From Alphaproteobacteria bacterium (GTDB taxonomy: Bacteria; Pseudomonadota; Alphaproteobacteria; Micavibrionales; Micavibrionaceae), in NCBI GenBank assembly GCA_024275825.1, contig JAJRYK010000037.1:1-37079 (forward strand): DNA of 37,079 nt, written 5' to 3'. Both the position numbers and the translations under genes were made by a program. Within the stretch, counting starts at the first letter, position 1; every line of letters begins with the position of its first letter. Positions 2 to 35,373 of this stretch are shown here, piece by piece. The notes beneath the pieces were generated by a model that was given only the letters and a program-made list of their open reading frames with translations, ran no database searches and was not told the DNA's origin.

Positions 2-124
2 CCTTTGCCACCTTACAGCCCGGACTTTAACCCCATAGAACAAAGCTTTGGTAGCCTAAAAAGGCGACGGCAATTTTTACCGCTTGGCACGCCATTGGAC
101 GATTTATTTATGTGCAATTATTAA
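2..124 (+). pseudogene. IS630-family transposase, C-terminal fragment (cut by window edge)
   Basis: Reading from base 2 gives 40 residues beginning PLPPYSPDFNPIEQSFGSLK. The block YSPDFNPIE is the hallmark of the last catalytic motif of the IS630 DDE transposase (the final acidic residue is the E of NPIE). The frame stops at TAA 122-124, inside the terminal inverted repeat, as is usual for compact IS630 elements. It is incomplete only because the window begins here; the gene itself may be intact upstream. Confidence 0.85.
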
Positions 125-138
125 TTGGAATAACTATA
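109..138 (+). repeat. IS630 right terminal inverted repeat
   Basis: This 30-base end pairs with 36941-36970 (27/30 identical after reverse complementing). It also overlaps the last codons and stop of the transposase. Its outer 22 bases match one end of the small element at 35374-35523 at 20 of 22 positions. Confidence 0.85.
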
Positions 139-386
139 TTAGTTGCGTTCTTTCACGTGATCATGTCCATATGTTCGTTGAAATACCGCAGCATATTGCT
201 GTGTCTGCGTTTGTTCAACGCGTTAAGGGCCGTTCTTCACGTAAGATACAGCAGGAATTTCCGGAGCTTCGTAAGCGTTACTGGGGCAGGCGGTTTTGGG
301 CGCGCGGCTATTTCTGTACGACAAGCGGGAATATTACAGATGAGGTAATCTTGAAGTACCTTGAGAACCATAAAGAGCCACACTAA
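139..386 (+). pseudogene. IS200/IS605-type TnpA (Y1 transposase), 5'-truncated
   Basis: About 82 residues of an HUH single-strand transposase remain. Visible are the metal-binding HUH motif (DHVHMFVEIP), the conserved RYWGRRFWARGYF block, and the C-terminal helix with the nucleophile tyrosine in ILKYLENH, 63 residues after the second His of the HUH pair. The family is normally about 130-155 residues, so roughly the first 50-70 are missing. Homology begins near base 141, directly after the IS630 inverted repeat, so the IS630 insertion cut the gene. An ATG at 84 would open this frame but lies inside IS630 and is an artefact. The protein is unlikely to be functional. Confidence 0.85.
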
Positions 387-9810: not shown

Positions 9811-9908
9811 TACCACAGAGATCACAGAGATCACAGAGGTTTCACAGAGAAAGCTTATAATAAAAACTCTGTGTTTTTTCTCTGTGATCTCTGTGATCTC
9901 TGTGGTTA
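9811..9908. repeat. Long palindrome with perfect 27-bp arms before priA
   Basis: 9812-9838 and 9880-9906 are perfect inverted repeats of 27 bases, built of the unit ACAGAGATC repeated and ending in the family terminus ACCACAGAG. The loop is 41 bases. It occupies the whole gap between the divergent aldolase and priA genes and ends 4 bases before the upstream candidate start of priA, so it can affect transcription or translation of both. Confidence 0.95.
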
Positions 9909-15751: not shown

Positions 15752-16669
15752 ATGGCAAGTTTACGCGATTACAGAGACCGGATTAAATCGGTCACATCGA
15801 CTCGGAAGATCACCTCGGCCATGAAGATGGTTGCGGCGTCTAAGCTGCGTCGGGCGCAGGAACAAGCCGAGGCAAGCCAGCCTTACGCGCAGAGCATGGC
15901 TGATATGCTGGCACGCGTGGCTGCGAATGTGACGGTGAATGCGTCTAGCTCTAAGCTGCTTGCGGGCACCGGGTCTGATCAAACCCATTTGATTGTGGTT
16001 GTGACGGCCGATCGCGGCCTTTGCGGCGGCTTTAACGGTAATTTAGCCAAAGCGGCGCTGAAAATGGCGCGCGACCTTATCGCGCAGAAAAAAGATGTGA
16101 AGTTTATCTGTGTTGGCCGCAAGGGTCAGGTGCTGGTCCAGCGCGAAATGCGCGAGCGTATGTGGGAAAGCTTCACCGGCCTGTTCGGTAAGTCCCGCGT
16201 TGATTTCGCCGCGGCGGATGAGGTCACAAGCTATATTCTTGATAAATTCGATGCTGGTGAGTTCGACGTTTGCACCTTGCTTTATAACGAGTTCAAATCC
16301 GTGCTGACTCAAACACCAACCGCGCAGCAATTAATCCCCTTCAAACTGCCCGAAATGCAGGATAATGAAGAGCAGGACAAGGGCGACAGCGCTGCATCCG
16401 AAGGCGGTCCGTCTTCCCCATATGATTTCGAGCCAGAGGAAGAAGAGATCCTAAACGCTTTGCTGCCCCGTAATTTGGGGGTGCAAATCTTCCGCGCTTT
16501 CCTTGACAGCGCTGCCGGCGAGCACGCCGCGCGCATGACCGCAATGGATAACGCCACCAGAAACGCCGGCGAAATGATCGACGATCTCACATTGCAATAT
16601 AACCGCGCCCGCCAGGCCTCTATCACAAAAGAACTGATCGAGATTATCAGCGGGGCTGAGGCGCTGTAA
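15752..16669 (+). CDS. atpG: ATP synthase F1 subunit gamma
   Basis: This 305-residue central rotor shaft of F1 has the conserved N-terminal helix SLRDYRDRIKSVTSTRKITS with AMKMVAASKLRRAQ, the middle motif TADRGLCGGFNGN, and the C-terminal helix (ARMTAMDNATRNAGEMIDDL then YNRARQASITKELIEIISGA). It is slightly longer than the usual 285-295 because of an acidic insertion around residues 205-235 (DNEEQDKGDSAASEGG and FEPEEEE). AAGAAGG lies about 12 bases before the ATG. The stop TAA is directly followed by the ATG of the GxxExxY gene. Confidence 0.96.
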   Translation: MASLRDYRDRIKSVTSTRKITSAMKMVAASKLRRAQEQAEASQPYAQSMADMLARVAANVTVNASSSKLLAGTGSDQTHLIVVVTADRGLCGGFNGNLAKAALKMARDLIAQKKDVKFICVGRKGQVLVQREMRERMWESFTGLFGKSRVDFAAADEVTSYILDKFDAGEFDVCTLLYNEFKSVLTQTPTAQQLIPFKLPEMQDNEEQDKGDSAASEGGPSSPYDFEPEEEEILNALLPRNLGVQIFRAFLDSAAGEHAARMTAMDNATRNAGEMIDDLTLQYNRARQASITKELIEIISGAEAL

Positions 16670-17125
16670 ATGGAACCGCAGATGAACGCAGATACACGCA
16701 GATTAAGTAAGATAGATTATCCCTACCAGGATTTGACGTTTGCTATCAATGGTTGTGCGATGTCGGTGTTGAATGAAATTGGGCATGGGTTTCATGAGAA
16801 AATTTATGAGAAGGCTCTAGCTTTGGCGCTTGACAGCAAGGGTTTGAAGTACGAACAACAGAAAGCGTATAATATTTTGTTCCAAGGGGAGGTCGTTGGC
16901 ACGTTTATTCCCGATTTTGTCATTGAGAACAAAATTATTGTTGAATTAAAAACAATTGATCACATCGGAAATAATGAAAAAGGTCAGGTTCTGAATTATT
17001 TGCGGGCAAGTAATTTAGGGCTGGGTCTTATTTTCAATTTTAAAAATCAAAAACTGGAGTGGCAGCGCCTCGTATTGTCTGAAAATATCAGCGTCAATCA
17101 GCGTTCATCTGCGGTTAATAATTAA
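16670..17125 (+). CDS. GxxExxY protein (PD-(D/E)XK nuclease-like), inserted in the atp operon
   Basis: This 151-residue protein carries the name motif GFHEKIY at 40-46 (G40, E43, Y46) and a PD-(D/E)XK-type core: P81-D82, then E92-x-K94 in VELKT. The GxxExxY family is assigned to the PD-(D/E)XK nuclease superfamily, and its cellular role is not established. The N-terminal MNADTRRL and C-terminal NQRSSAVN are not part of the fold. They are translations of inverted repeats at 16674-16703 and 17087-17116. The gene begins on the base after the atpG stop and lies 26 bases before atpD, so the operon stays transcribable. No ATP synthase role is expected; it looks like a mobile passenger. Confidence 0.88.
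   Translation: MEPQMNADTRRLSKIDYPYQDLTFAINGCAMSVLNEIGHGFHEKIYEKALALALDSKGLKYEQQKAYNILFQGEVVGTFIPDFVIENKIIVELKTIDHIGNNEKGQVLNYLRASNLGLGLIFNFKNQKLEWQRLVLSENISVNQRSSAVNN
16674..16703 (+). repeat. Left terminal inverted repeat of the GxxExxY element
   Basis: Thirty bases starting AACCGCAGATGAACGC. They match the reverse complement of 17087-17116 at 26 of 30 positions, with the outer 16 identical. They encode codons 2-12 of the GxxExxY protein. Confidence 0.9.
17087..17116 (-). repeat. Right terminal inverted repeat of the GxxExxY element
   Basis: Partner of 16674-16703. It encodes the last residues of the GxxExxY protein. The sequence GCGTTCATCTGCGGTTA is a close variant of GTGTTCATCTGTGGTTA at the end of dinG. 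Confidence 0.9.
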
Positions 17126-17133
17126 AAACTTAA

Positions 17134-18588
<1,455 letters not shown>

Positions 18589-18598
18589 TACCACCACC

Positions 18599-18651
18599 TG
18601 TCACCCCCGCGAAGGCGGGGGGCCAGATGCCCATATAAAGCGGGCATGACA
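18599..18651. repeat. REP-like repeat between atpD and atpC
   Basis: CCCCCGC-GAAG-GCGGGGG forms a strong hairpin, followed by ATGCCC-ATATAAAGC-GGGCAT. The outer ends TGTCA and TGACA are also complementary. It belongs to the second (GTCA...TGAC) family of dispersed repeats in this window. Confidence 0.85.
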
Positions 18652-24012: not shown

Positions 24013-24206
24013 TTTTTAACCACAGATGAACACGGATTTTATTCTTTGGTAAAAACGTCATTCCGAACCCTCGCCTTCGCGGGGGCAGGCTGCTGTGAGG
24101 AATCTTACCAAGCACCAACCGGGTAAGATTCCTCGTCGCTGCGCTCTGTCGGAATGACGGGTAAAAAATAATCCGTGTTCATCTGTGTTCATCTGTGGTT
24201 AAAAAC
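24013..24206. repeat. Palindromic repeat overlapping the 3' end of dinG
   Basis: Left arm TTTTTAACCACAGATGAACAC... (24013-24040) pairs with 24168-24206, whose sequence ends TTCATCTGTGGTTAAAAA and carries one additional TGTTCATC unit. The right arm supplies the last six codons (TTDEHR) and the stop of dinG on the minus strand. A REP-type repeat is nested inside (24056-24159). Confidence 0.92.
24056..24159. repeat. REP-type repeat nested within the previous repeat
   Basis: CGTCATTCCGA (24056-24066) and TCGGAATGACG (24149-24159) form the outer stem. An inner stem pairs GAGGAATCTTACC with GGTAAGATTCCTC. It lies wholly inside the loop of the 24013-24206 palindrome, so one repeat family has inserted into the other. 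Confidence 0.9.
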
Positions 24207-27139
24207 CCTTTAATCGCCTCAACCGTATCCTTCAGTCCAGTTTTCTCCACCTGTGCCTCCGCCGGGAACGCATTATGCAGGCGGCTGGGCAGCATTGAGT
24301 CGAGCATCACAAATACGCCCTTATCATCGCCGTGACGGATCAGTCGACCAAAGGCTTGCTTCAGCTTTAATCGCGTAATCATCTCATCATATTGCCGCCC
24401 GCCAAAGGCCGCCCGCCGTGCCTTGTGCAAAATGCTGGGCCGTGGCCAAGGCACCCGGTCAAACACGATCAGCCGCAGGCTTTCCCCCGGCACATCAACC
24501 CCGTCGCGCACGGCGTCCGTGCCCAGCAAGCACGCATGTGTATCATCGCGGAACATATCGACCAGCGTGCCGGGATCGATCTCGTCCACATGCTGCGCGT
24601 AAAGCGATAGCCCGTTTTCCTCCAGCTCCATGGCGATCTTTCCATGTACTGCGCGCAGGCGCGAAATCGCGGTAAACAGCCCCAGCGCGCCGCCGCCGCT
24701 CGCCTCGAACAGCGCCCGATACGCGCCCGAAACTTGCCCCAAATCATTTTTGTTCACGTCATTAATGATGAAAATCTTCGTCTGCGCGCCGTAATCAAAG
24801 GGCGAACTAAAGCCCACCTGCGTCGCCGCACTGCTCAGGTAATTCGCCCCGGTACGCGCGCTGGCGGTGGCCCAATGCTCCTCATCACTGCTATCGCGCA
24901 GCGTCGCCGACGTCACCGCCATCCCTTGCACATGCGGCTTGATTGCCGCGGCAAATGGCTCCATCGGATCGGTATGGTGACGATATAGCCCCACATCAAC
25001 TGCGCGACCGCCCGTGCGCTCAATGGCCATCCAGTCCACATAGCTCTCGGGGGAGGTGCCCTTATCCAAATCCTCCAACATCGCGCCCCATGCGCTCAAC
25101 GTCATCACTGCGCGCTTTTCCAGCGATCCGGCAACCGCGTCCAGCCGTTTGCGCATATCGCTCTCCATCATCCCTTGATCCTCCGCCAATCGTTTGCGGA
25201 AAATTTTTGCCAGCTCTTTCATTGGCTTTTGCAGCTTCATCAGCGCCGCGCGCAGAGTTTTTGCCTTGGCCATCACCTCCGGTAGCGCCGGATACGTCTC
25301 GGTTTCCAGCGAATACGGCCCATCGCGTCCTTGCGCCCGCGCATAAACCTGCCCATGCACCAGCGCCAGAAATTCCTCGCACGGCCCGCTCGGCGCGCTG
25401 TCCTTCAGCCGCCGCGTCCAGCCCTCCGCCGTCAGGCACGTGGCCTCATGCACCACGGCCAGCAGCGCCTTTTCCGCCTCGGCATGGCCTGCCGCCAAAT
25501 CCTCCGCCCGGCGTTTCAGCCCGCGCGCGCGCGACCTGCGCCCGCCTTCTGCGCCCAAAATCCAGCGCCGTAAATCTCGCGTTTCCTGCGCCGTTAAATG
25601 CGCAGCAAAGGCGCTGTCGGCGGCATCAAACAAATGATGTCCTTCATCGAAAATATAGCGGCTCGGCATGTCCTCTCCCGGTGAAGACAGCGCTGCGCTG
25701 ATCATCACCAGCGCATGATTGGCCACCACAATCCGGCTGCGCGCCGCCTTACGCACGGAATGCTCCACAAAGCAGCGAGAGTAATGATCGCAGGCTGAAT
25801 AAATGCACTCCCCCCGCCGATCTGCCAAGCCTAAACTGTTCTGATAGCCTAAAATCCCCGACAGCCAGCCCGGAAAATCCGCGCCGGTTAAATCGCCATC
25901 CTTGCTGGCCGCAACCCAGCGCGCCATAATTCCCGCCGCGATTGTGCCATCGACGGAACGCGCGGTCGCCACCGCCGCGGCCGCATCCTCCATATTCAGC
26001 AGGCACAAATAGTTCTCCCGCCCTTTACGCACCGCGATATGCGCCTCCTTCAGCGCCGGGTTGGGGTAGAGCTTATCCAGCTCTTGATCAATTTGCCGCT
26101 GTAAATTCTTGGTATAGGTCGAAATCCAGACCGTGCCCTTATTCTTCTCTGCCCAGACGCTGGCCGGAGCAAGATAGCCGAGCGTTTTGCCCACGCCCGT
26201 CCCAGCCTCAGCGAGGATGATGTGGGGGTGATGCGGATCTCCATCACCGCTCCCCCTCTCAATCCCCCCCGCATGCGGGGGGGAGGAAAGAGGCGCAGGG
26301 ATTGTAGTATCGCCCTCAAATGAATCCCCTCTCCCCTCGGGGAGAGGGCTAGGGTGAGGGGGCAATGATGAAGCGTGAGGCGGTGATTGTTCTGAGGCCT
26401 GCCCCCCCACCGGCGCAAACGCGCCCGCAACCGCCTTGGCGTAGTCTATCTGAGACTCGCGCACTTCCGCGCCCGCGCCGCGCAGCTGCTCCAGCCGTTC
26501 CTGCGTTTCCTCCGCGCTCACCCCATGATACGATGGCGGCGGCTCCGGCGCTTCTTCCGCCCATTCCGGCAGGTTTTTCCACACATTCAGCGCGGCTTTG
26601 GAATTAATCGGGATAGACGGCTCATATGTTTCCCCCAGCGCGTCAAACACAAACGGGCTCCACGCCCAGCCTTGCCCTTGCGCCCCCATCACGCCTGCAA
26701 TCTCCAGCGGCGGCGCTTTCGCGCTCCATGGATCATTCTGCAAATCACTCAGCAGCGCCTTGGTAATGTCCATCAACGCCATTGGATAATCCTCAAAGCT
26801 CTCCGGCGGCACCATCCCCAGCGCAACGGCCAGCCCATGCGGCGTCGGCACACAAAACTTCGCCGGATGCACGAATGCAAACAGCTCCAGCACATCAAAC
26901 GCCAAAAACGAAGCATCATCGCCCAGCCGTCCGCGCATATATGGCCCATGACACACCAGCACCGACTGCCCCTGAATCAACCTCTTCGCCTCCCTATGTG
27001 AAACCGTCTTCAGCTCTCCCTCATCCGTCAACAGATAGGCAAGGCGCGCATTAACACTGAGCGCCGGAATATCGGGCAGGGTGATACAGGCTTTATCAAC
27101 GGCAGCGGCGGCGGTGGTGGAGATAGATTCGGAACTCAT
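24179..27139 (-). CDS. dinG: DinG/Rad3-type iron-sulfur DNA helicase
   Basis: This 986-residue XPD-like 5'-3' helicase has Walker A in EAGTGVGKTLGYLAP (near residue 310) and the DEAH box as FDEGHH. Four cysteines that fit the Fe-S cluster are present: NYLCLLN and ECIYSACDHYSRC. Motif VI is QAFGRLIRHGDDKG. It is longer than E. coli DinG because of an N-terminal extension of about 230 residues and because about 40 residues just before Walker A are encoded by palindromic repeats (26249-26364). The start is ATG 27139; the longer frame runs into REP DNA. The C-terminal TTDEHR comes from another repeat. Confidence 0.9.
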   Translation of the reverse strand: MSSESISTTAAAAVDKACITLPDIPALSVNARLAYLLTDEGELKTVSHREAKRLIQGQSVLVCHGPYMRGRLGDDASFLAFDVLELFAFVHPAKFCVPTPHGLAVALGMVPPESFEDYPMALMDITKALLSDLQNDPWSAKAPPLEIAGVMGAQGQGWAWSPFVFDALGETYEPSIPINSKAALNVWKNLPEWAEEAPEPPPSYHGVSAEETQERLEQLRGAGAEVRESQIDYAKAVAGAFAPVGGQASEQSPPHASSLPPHPSPLPEGRGDSFEGDTTIPAPLSSPPHAGGIERGSGDGDPHHPHIILAEAGTGVGKTLGYLAPASVWAEKNKGTVWISTYTKNLQRQIDQELDKLYPNPALKEAHIAVRKGRENYLCLLNMEDAAAAVATARSVDGTIAAGIMARWVAASKDGDLTGADFPGWLSGILGYQNSLGLADRRGECIYSACDHYSRCFVEHSVRKAARSRIVVANHALVMISAALSSPGEDMPSRYIFDEGHHLFDAADSAFAAHLTAQETRDLRRWILGAEGGRRSRARGLKRRAEDLAAGHAEAEKALLAVVHEATCLTAEGWTRRLKDSAPSGPCEEFLALVHGQVYARAQGRDGPYSLETETYPALPEVMAKAKTLRAALMKLQKPMKELAKIFRKRLAEDQGMMESDMRKRLDAVAGSLEKRAVMTLSAWGAMLEDLDKGTSPESYVDWMAIERTGGRAVDVGLYRHHTDPMEPFAAAIKPHVQGMAVTSATLRDSSDEEHWATASARTGANYLSSAATQVGFSSPFDYGAQTKIFIINDVNKNDLGQVSGAYRALFEASGGGALGLFTAISRLRAVHGKIAMELEENGLSLYAQHVDEIDPGTLVDMFRDDTHACLLGTDAVRDGVDVPGESLRLIVFDRVPWPRPSILHKARRAAFGGRQYDEMITRLKLKQAFGRLIRHGDDKGVFVMLDSMLPSRLHNAFPAEAQVEKTGLKDTVEAIKGFLTTDEHR
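26249..26364. repeat. Two palindromic modules inserted in frame in dinG
   Basis: 26263-26284 is a C-tract/G-tract palindrome around GCATGC. 26325-26364 contains CCCCTCTCCCC-TC-GGGGAGAGGG followed by CTAGGGTGAGGGGGC, a widespread bacterial repeat type. Both remain in the helicase reading frame, giving a Pro/His/Ser/Gly-rich stretch directly before Walker A. Confidence 0.85.
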
Positions 27140-27190
27140 CCAAAATAAATAGCACAATTCCCCCCGTGCCGTCATCCCAAACCCCACCCC

Positions 27191-27267
27191 TGTCATCCCG
27201 GACTTGATCCGGGATCCATCGTGTCTTCATCTATTCATAATGGATCCCGGCCTTCGCCGGGATGACG
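27191..27267. repeat. REP pair upstream of dinG
   Basis: TGTCATCCCGG ... GGGATCCAT (27191-27219) and ATGGATCCCGG ... CCGGGATGACG (27240-27267) are inverted copies around a 20-base loop. The region 27140-27353 otherwise holds only promoter-like sequence. Confidence 0.9.
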
Positions 27268-28283: not shown

Positions 28284-28310
28284 ACTCTTAGTGTCTTCGT
28301 GGTTCAAAAA
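28284..28310. repeat. Single arm of the AACCAC repeat family
   Basis: The minus strand reads TTGAACCACGAAGACACTAAG, the same text as 35328-35348 apart from small changes. No partner arm is seen nearby, so it is a solo remnant. It fills the gap between the converging orphan gene and lysS. Confidence 0.6.
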
Positions 28311-30029: not shown

Positions 30030-30171
30030 CTTATTCGTAAATGCGTTTTCTCGCGTTTTTTCACGTATATATTTTTTAGCGTTTTACGCCTGCGTATCCC
30101 CTCCTTTGTGGCCGTTCGGTCACGTCACATCTAACCTTCCTTTTAACGTCTTAAATCAATGGAGATTTATC

Positions 30172-31035
30172 ATGTCTACAATCACGAAAAAAACGGCGCT
30201 TAAGGCTGTAAGGCCTGTCGTCAAAAAAGCAGCGGTAAAGAAAAAACCAGCTGCGAAAAAGAAAGCCACAGCGAAGAAAAAGAAGCCGGCTGTAAAGTCA
30301 GTTTCAGCAGCAGCCAAAGCAGCAGCAGCGAAAAGAAAAGCCGCCGCCGCCGCAAAGAAAAGAGCCGCCGCTAAAAAGACAGTAAAGAAGAAAACAGCCA
30401 AAAAAACCGCACCAAAGAAAAGAGTAGCAGCTAAGAAGAAGCCAGCCGCCAAAAAGAAAGTTACAGCCAAGAAAAAGAAAGTTGTAACGAAAAAGAAGAC
30501 GGTAACAAAGAAAAAGTCAGTGGCTAAAAAGAAAACAACCGCTAAAAAAGCAGCACCTAAGAAGAAGGTTGCGGCTAAAAAGACAGTGAAGAAAAAAGTG
30601 GCTAAGAAGAAAACAACAGCTAAAAAAGCGGCGCCTAAGAAAAAGGTAGCAGCCAAGAAAAAGCCCGCGGCTAAAAAGAAAGTTACAGCTAAGAAAAAAA
30701 CGGTAGCGAAAAAAGCTGTAAAGAAAAAGGCAACGGCTAAGCGGAAAAAGCCGGTGGCTAAAAAGAAGCCAGCCTCTAAAAAGGCCGCACCAAAAAGAAA
30801 GACAGCCGCTAAGAAGAAGCCGGTTGCCAAGAAAAAGGTAGCACCAAAGAAGAGAGTAGCGGCTAAGAAGAAGCCCGCTGCGAAGAAAAAGGTTGCTGCT
30901 AAAAAGAAGCCAGTGGCTAAAAAGAAAGTAGTGAAAAAGACAGTAGCGAAGAAAAAGCCGGCGGCCAAAAAGAAGGCCCCAGCCAAGAAGAAAACAGCTG
31001 CTAAGCGTAAAACAACAGCACGTAAAAAGAAGTAA
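30172..31035 (+). CDS. Histone H1-like Lys/Ala-rich DNA-binding protein
   Basis: This 287-residue protein consists almost entirely of Lys, Ala, Pro, Val, Thr and Arg. It is built from AAKKKPAAKKK-, VAKKKTTAKKAAPKK- and KKTVKKK-type repeats, as in the C-terminal tail of eukaryotic H1 and bacterial H1-like (HU-tail or AlgP-like) proteins. It should bind DNA without sequence preference and help compact the nucleoid. It has no folded domain. GGAGA stands 7 bases before the ATG, and a strong terminator follows at 31064. Repetitive AAG/AAA-GCT coding makes it prone to repeat-number change; two near-identical blocks are visible around 30525-30570 and 30597-30640. Confidence 0.88.
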   Translation: MSTITKKTALKAVRPVVKKAAVKKKPAAKKKATAKKKKPAVKSVSAAAKAAAAKRKAAAAAKKRAAAKKTVKKKTAKKTAPKKRVAAKKKPAAKKKVTAKKKKVVTKKKTVTKKKSVAKKKTTAKKAAPKKKVAAKKTVKKKVAKKKTTAKKAAPKKKVAAKKKPAAKKKVTAKKKTVAKKAVKKKATAKRKKPVAKKKPASKKAAPKRKTAAKKKPVAKKKVAPKKRVAAKKKPAAKKKVAAKKKPVAKKKVVKKTVAKKKPAAKKKAPAKKKTAAKRKTTARKKK

Positions 31036-35128: not shown

Positions 35129-35373
35129 TCATTATTGCGAGTAAGCCTGCCCCTCACAAGGCCATCCCGAGCCCCCTTAATGTCATCCCGAGCGAAGCCG
35201 AGGGATCTTATTTCTTAACGCAAAGACCGCAAAGCTCGCAAAGTTCTCCTCTCCTGTCATCCCCGCGGCGCGCATCGCGCGCTTAAACAGCGGGGATCCA
35301 CAAATCCGCGATAGCGACAAAGCTCTTTTAACCACGAAGTACACTAAGGTCATTAAGGCTTCACAAAATGATA
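35129..35373. repeat. Cluster of REP and AACCAC-type repeat fragments after uvrB
   Basis: No gene is visible here. 35181-35210 is a TGTCATCCCGAGCGAAGCCG-type repeat. 35255-35302 has TGTCATCCCCGC paired with GCGGGGATCCACA around a CGCGC-rich inner stem. 35215-35244 has three CGCAAAG-type units, and 35327-35363 has TTAACCACGAAG and following text of the other family. The patch is a landing site for several repeat types. Confidence 0.8.

Follow-up and report, generated by a model that had tools for sequence, protein, structure and literature searches.

GxxExxY nuclease genes and their flanking inverted word-arrays as a candidate REPIN-like genetic element, from an atp operon to many phyla

Homing endonuclease genes, which often lie in conserved genes, encode a nuclease that cuts the allele lacking the gene; repair then copies the gene in, and the allele at a fixed site is filled or replaced, together with its flanks, by recombination. 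In the REPIN/RAYT system, as described in the available part of PMC8049555, a single chromosomal RAYT gene is long retained and many gene-less palindromic cognate elements are dispersed in the genome, being commoner in the presence of the gene. REP elements carry a GTAG or CGTC tag at one end (PMC3733652, accessible portion), and in Thiomargarita nelsonii a gene of the PD-(D/E)XK_2 (YhgA-type) family was proposed to be the source of the hupL MITE (accessible portion of PMC4853749). The GxxExxY proteins are mentioned in passing in the excerpts available of PMC8934634 and PMC12085832, and the Pfam family PF13366 is mentioned in those of PMC9756366. In the open-access literature searched, as far as its texts were accessible, no description of arms around GxxExxY genes was found.

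The stretch of DNA analysed here (37,079 nucleotides, hereafter the window) contains a GxxExxY gene in an ATP synthase operon. Profile matches and the fold prediction assign the 151-codon frame at 16670..17125 (plus strand) to the PD-(D/E)XK nucleases of TIGR04256 and PF13366, the domain covering residues 22-135. Its neighbours on the same strand are intact: upstream atpG (15752..16669, from the ORF list and a profile match) and downstream atpD (17152..18588, from the ORF list and its matches in relatives). As an earlier sequence-only reading of this DNA had stated, the frame starts right after the atpG stop (16669), ends 26 bases before atpD (17152) and is bounded by 30-nt inverted repeats (16674..16703 and 17087..17116) that are complementary at 26/30 positions (87%) with identical outer 16 nt. 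This match is beyond chance: in shuffles keeping the dinucleotides, the best 30-mer match averages 16.3 and never exceeds 22, so that 0/400 reached the observed 26. The repeat and word scan resolved the left arm (plus strand) into three copies of CGCAGAT with a 10-bp spacing, and the right arm (minus strand) into an inverted array of CGCAGAT, CGCTGAT and CGCTGAT. That reading had also proposed that the repeats lie in the reading frame and encode the ends of the protein, which is true at the window locus but does not hold as a rule. Indeed, the arms stand outside the ORF in many relatives (e.g. L001, L003 and L004), and the ends of the window protein that run through the arms are predicted to be disordered (pLDDT below 50 at residues 9-15 and 147-151), so that the coding of protein ends by the repeats appears to be a read-through. 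The protein end also traverses the right arm at L179 in Sphingomonas parapaucimobilis (NZ_CP155749.1), where the gene lies between fabD and fabG with CGCGAAG-type arms. Elsewhere in the window, a GC-rich palindrome (GTCACCCCCGCGAAGGCGGGGG), a repeat of another type, is found directly 3' of atpD at 18600-18625, and the ORF 30106-31035 encodes a repeat protein that resembles histone H1 and is very rich in lysine and alanine.

The window protein scores 126.5 bits against TIGR04256 (cut-off 35) and 119.5 bits against PF13366 (PDDEXK_3, cut-off 22), and does not belong to PF01797. In an alignment (A2) of 66 sequences, made of the 61 open ones among 70 reference proteins checked and of five from the source genome, G40, E43, Y46, D82 and Y110 are invariant, residue 92 is E in 55 sequences and D in 11, and residue 94 is K in 65. 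The PD-(D/E)XK-like core (D82, E92, K94) and the GxxExxY motif, first spotted in the window protein by itself, are thus conserved across the 66 sequences, apart from the E/D exchange at residue 92 and one sequence without K94; the nuclease activity is predicted. The fold of the window protein is predicted as PD-(D/E)XK with a pLDDT of 86.3, and its solved structural relatives are general PD-(D/E)XK proteins only. The top match is the Cas4 protein SSO0001 (4ic1), with a Z of 10.6 but an rmsd of 7.8 (Foldseek E 2.6e-4), followed by 3ijm (Z 8.3, rmsd 3.3), and Hjc matches with a Z of 7.6, tied with many others. T7 endonuclease I ranks 43 and 48 in Foldseek and is not among the 50 VIA matches listed, which excludes nothing. 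By sequence, the sole PDB matches are weak ones to this same T7 enzyme, which cleaves four-way junctions (phmmer E 0.016-0.12, profile E 1.7), and the Pfam Phage_endo_I score of the window protein is 19.5 bits, below the cut-off of 29.1. Cas4 proteins use cysteines for an iron-sulphur cluster; the window protein contains one cysteine, C29. These matches suggest a kinship of GxxExxY proteins to Cas4 or to junction resolvases. Membership in a defence system was considered and rejected: PADLOC gave no match for the window protein, and for the two other GxxExxY proteins submitted it gave weak Cas4 matches, with one AbiEii and one restriction-enzyme match. Phage cargo was rejected as well, the one query used (the L004 protein) having no phage match and the PHROGs endonuclease matches being weak. 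GxxExxY was found in 8 of 72,556 plasmid records (7 with the window protein as query), and this rarity on plasmids, with the lack of phage match, is unlike most mobile genes.

The inverted repeats turned out to be no peculiarity of the window locus, as might have been thought from the window alone, but a property of the GxxExxY family. The source genome has five GxxExxY genes, all of them between inverted arrays of a 7-bp word that differs from gene to gene (CGCAGAT for the window gene; CACAGAG, CACAAAG, CACTAAG and CGCAAAG for the others). When at most 3 mismatches are allowed, the 16-nt end of the window element is found 40+40 times in this genome, against 2+4 times for the reversed control, and these coordinates yield 16 gene-less inverted pairs spanning 52-225 bp, several of which enclose other palindromic repeats. 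A second array pattern occurs 40+48 times, against 9+12 in the control; among the 11 elements listed for it, one spans 242 bp and the other 10 form hairpins of 73-101 bp, whose AT-rich loops are unlike each other. Two gene-less elements identified by the repeat and word scan, with no strand assigned, lie in the window. The element at 24018..24200 has arms of the word class of the window gene (CACAGAT/CACGGAT) with another palindromic repeat (GTCATTCCGA...) nested inside, and that at 9812..9907 has CACAGAG arms, the word of the source genome's own GxxExxY gene L001. The right arm of the former reaches into the end of a long minus-strand ORF (24179-27196), whose final codons it provides. More word pairs are present in the window, namely a CGCAAAG array at 35219-35243 and CACGAAG/CACTAAG at 35333-35348 and 28287-28301. 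By eye, no target-site duplication was seen in the AT-rich flanks of the source-genome elements inspected.

Across phyla, 80 loci were kept out of 487 confirmed, and two of them were left out for too short flanks. An inverted array above threshold, set at the 99% level of single-base shuffles, was detected in the flanks of 57 of the 78 usable loci, 21 having no arms above it, whereas the same test placed elsewhere on the same contigs was positive in 4/408 control placements. The words include CACGAAT, CACGGAT, CGCGAAT, CACAGAG and CGCAAAG, as well as CGCCAAG, ACAGGAT, CGCAGAC and CACGAAA. The prediction that other GxxExxY genes would have matching inverted termini was thus borne out by all five genes of the source genome and by most loci across phyla. 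In ten further whole genomes, for which 26 of the 33 listed GxxExxY rows were examined (several being loci already in the cross-phylum scan), the arm score exceeds 26 in 23 genes and does not in 3, and paralogues mostly have different words. As judged from these scans, gene and array are paired and each gene has its private word. In addition, arm similarity tracks protein similarity with r=0.466 overall and 0.431 for between-phylum pairs only (0/5000 permutations), over the 63 of 86 loci that have an arm score above 26 and a protein of more than 60 aa, phyla being assigned by hand from record titles. This covariation of protein and word, established here by sequence comparison, indicates that gene and arms evolve together; alone it is no proof of recognition, and it may reflect linkage rather than recognition.

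In the order of the source genome, the GxxExxY gene has a patchy distribution (20/58 genomes). Arrays of two word classes are present at least twice in 17 of the 20 genomes with the gene, against 6 of the 38 without it. One genome without the gene, G010, has 19 array matches of the AT class, so arrays can outlive the gene or be served otherwise, and in three genomes with the gene (G006, G019 and G039) neither of the two searched word classes was found. Dispersal was followed in G170, a single contig of 6.2 Mb, in which an arms-only query has 89 matches (each arm and each strand being counted separately). Twenty stretches were fetched, and in 67 of their 190 pairs at least 100 bp are shared with an identity of 90% or higher. 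Seven GxxExxY matches were obtained in G170, the seventh of which (E 3.9e-4) is a fragment. Among the six compared, only the gene at 759944-760279 has arms like the dispersed repeats (score 74 vs 21-26); of the other five, L351 lacks inverted arms and four are flanked by inverted arms built on other words. On these alignments, one gene-bearing copy in G170 has many gene-less relatives, documenting the dispersal of gene-less copies of the arms of one gene.

Turnover was followed in Flavobacterium at a single site, which has a 2OG-Fe(II) oxygenase-like gene on one side and a SUI1-family gene on the other, with 40 loci from 39 genomes (G080 is present twice, as L247 and L276). Both neighbours were found in 36 loci and one neighbour is missing in 4. 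The first 20 loci are the best matches to a gene-bearing query, and the share of loci with the gene is therefore no frequency. The site is empty in L268, L270, L266 and L259 (gaps of 73-82 bp), contains arms without a gene in L265, gene-less elements with other words in L258 and L263, and a decayed GxxExxY gene in L275. In L276, about seven tandem left-arm units precede one GxxExxY gene, which corresponds to a local amplification. Other loci at the site have gene and arms, and the site is held in many species. At least nine state changes are needed on the neighbour-gene tree (23 rows with the gene and 17 without), which is poorly resolved. Stops were found in 3 of 22 gene frames (broken copies), and the intact frames have a median dN/dS of 0.16 (126 pairs), a ratio from which the gene is under purifying selection. 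In 20 of these loci, left and right arms match each other better within a locus than across loci (45.2 vs 29.7; 0/20,000), establishing an arm-to-arm matching at the level of sequence. Such matching may also come from template switching at palindromes. L248 and L251 have flanks that are 90-97% alike and a gene and arms that are 67-80% alike; L248 and L253 have elements that are 91-98% alike, and the outer flanks of L253 are less like those of L248. From these identities, gene and arms were exchanged together, apparently by homologous replacement. The tract common to L248 and L253 overruns both arms: on the left it takes in about 90 bp of the gap, and on the right about 30-40 bp of the SUI1-family gene. 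This exchange, the only one with readable break points, fits homologous replacement over simple transposition. Presence, absence and exchange of the unit are thus documented in the aligned loci.

The atp operon was examined in relatives. An AtpD match was obtained in 57 of the 58 genomes of the order, and for the best 29 of the relatives the sequence of the atpG-atpD junction was inspected. Empty sites were found there, as the view of an insertion would predict, with gaps down to 23 bp. GxxExxY is present at this junction in 3 of the 29 (G033, G017 and G024), each time with arms of another word variant; relatives with the gene but without inverted arms, which would have counted against a mobile unit, are not among them. 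The remaining junctions have short gaps or other ORFs; the assorted other ORFs often found in this gap within the order (L067-L095) make it unusually permissive for part of a conserved operon. In the GxxExxY tree, the atpG-atpD copies of the source genome, G033 and G017 form a clade (97/91) and that of G024 lies elsewhere; the AU test of a single inherited insertion in all four genera gave p=0.055. A neighbour check revealed further copies at other gaps of the operon (L067, L210, L218, L229 and L230), between atpA and atpG in G017 and G029 and between atpD and atpC in G002, G028 and G036. In total, 9 of the 40 over-cut-off GxxExxY matches of the order belong to atp operons, where they occupy three different gaps; these genomes measure about 2 Mb, of which the operon takes up about 6 kb. 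This placement could reflect target choice, tolerance or function.

The sequence-only reading had seen in this locus a mobile unit with a nuclease acting on its own ends. In outline the idea of a mobile unit stands, given the empty sites, the inverted termini elsewhere, the dispersed gene-less copies and the joint turnover; simple transposition fits less well, the tract running past both arms in the one exchange with readable break points. On the comparisons above, we consider it quite likely that gene and arms form one co-evolving element that turns over. The explanation that we propose is that the GxxExxY gene and its two flanking inverted word-arrays would be a single genetic element, whose PD-(D/E)XK nuclease would recognise the word of its own arms, present in 3-4 copies per arm about one helical turn apart and differing between nuclease clades. 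The substrate of the nuclease would be the DNA of the paired arms, probably folded out as a hairpin or cruciform. The resulting break or nick would lead to low-frequency copying, gene-less arms being copied in trans and spreading along the chromosome, and the whole cassette would fill or replace the same site in other strains via recombination. The element would settle, and be tolerated, in short gaps between co-directional genes, including essential operons such as atp. We infer the binding, the cutting (including that of its own ends) and the role of cutting as the driver of copying. We lean towards this full explanation, in which a word-reading nuclease acts on its own arms and drives both the copying of arms-only elements and cassette replacement, with a confidence slightly lowered by the exchanged tract extending beyond both arms. 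This tract and the loci lacking arms are among the clearest points against it.

Another explanation could be that GxxExxY is a gene retained by the host for repair, defence or genome upkeep, with the arrays as binding or control sites, the cassette exchange as ordinary homologous recombination, and a nuclease that moves nothing. It would account for the conservation of the same site in many Flavobacterium species, the purifying selection, the overrun of both arms by the exchanged tract, the 9/40 copies in atp operons, and the rarity on plasmids without phage match. It accommodates poorly the near-identical gene-less copies scattered over a single chromosome, the patchy presence in 20/58 genomes, the several paralogues per genome with different words and the broken copies (3/22 frames), and we regard it as unlikely, although the strongest of the competing explanations. 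The paired arms, which are palindromic, intergenic and located in operons, could also be RNA hairpins such as terminators or stabilisers, with a nuclease acting on RNA. However, mismatches keeping a wobble pair are not in excess on the gene strand (64 vs 52, p=0.31; 28 vs 37, p=0.32), no Rfam match was obtained at window 16000-18000, and the PD-(D/E)XK fold is typical of DNA enzymes; an action at the RNA level is not favoured and seems quite improbable. Alternatively, the arrays could be spread by another transposase of the Y1 (IS200) type, as REPs are, GxxExxY being a passenger. A Y1 transposase ORF of 100 aa, perhaps truncated since its match is limited to the later portion of the family profile, lies at window 84-386, and RAYT spreads REPINs according to the available text of PMC8049555. 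Nevertheless, arrays are not associated with Y1 genes (9/17 genomes with Y1 vs 14/41 without, p=0.24), but they are associated with GxxExxY, whose sequence is followed by the word; Y1 was ruled out as the driver on this lack of association, and the passenger role appears still less probable than an action on RNA. Finally, coincidental repeats around a gene belonging to the mixed set of ORFs that many relatives have between atpG and atpD are ruled out as a serious option by the 0/400 shuffles and by the cross-phylum association against 4/408 controls.

Returning to an element whose nuclease reads its own arms, the link between gene and arrays supplies a testable substrate for a family that is widespread, owes its name to a motif alone and is not known to move DNA, and it explains the palindromic word-arrays that stand between genes in many phyla. 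The numerous natural pairs of protein and word also open the recognition code to testing. Should the nuclease drive copying, an enzyme class would be added to the short list of DNA movers, and the repeated settling in atp operons invites the question of how targets are chosen. The most specific version, REPIN-like elements found across phyla and powered by a lone PD-(D/E)XK nuclease, with private 7-bp words, arms-only copies mobilised in trans and co-evolution of word and nuclease, is put forward tentatively, as something less than probable. If it is true, the nuclease-word pairs would form a large natural set that could reveal the DNA-recognition code of the family. Even if the nuclease moves nothing, the gene-array pairing itself remains undescribed in the open-access literature searched.

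Compared with known systems, the element resembles the MITEs of DDE transposons in its short non-autonomous copies with terminal inverted repeats and in having ends in common with a gene-bearing element, but it has no DDE transposase and no target-site duplication seen by eye. It resembles homing endonuclease genes in the empty and filled alleles at a fixed site and in the replacement with flanks; unlike them, it uses many sites and its repeats are also scattered without the gene. The window protein appears to have the broad fold of Cas4, archaeal Hjc and T7 endonuclease I, whereas its sequence similarity to them is of borderline significance or less and it contains only one cysteine. The hupL MITE, as presented in the accessible portion of its source, likewise ties a PD-(D/E)XK gene to a repeat element; it differs in involving another PD-(D/E)XK family, one genome and a 19-bp inverted repeat with 10-bp direct repeats, and neither word arrays nor a series of protein-repeat pairs are reported for Thiomargarita in that portion. 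As for REP tags, the window element, the one checked, ends in AACCGC on both sides, without GTAG or CGTC. Since the enzyme class and the word-array arms match no described moving or repeat system that we can name, we consider the element to be new. REPIN/RAYT is its closest working analogy, with an unrelated enzyme: GxxExxY arrays too are dispersed cognate palindromes that are commoner in gene-bearing genomes, as far as REPINs are described in the text available, but RAYT is a Y1 (HUH) tyrosine transposase and GxxExxY a predicted PD-(D/E)XK nuclease, whose arms are arrays of a 7-bp word with the gene itself between them, and several such genes with different words reside in one genome.
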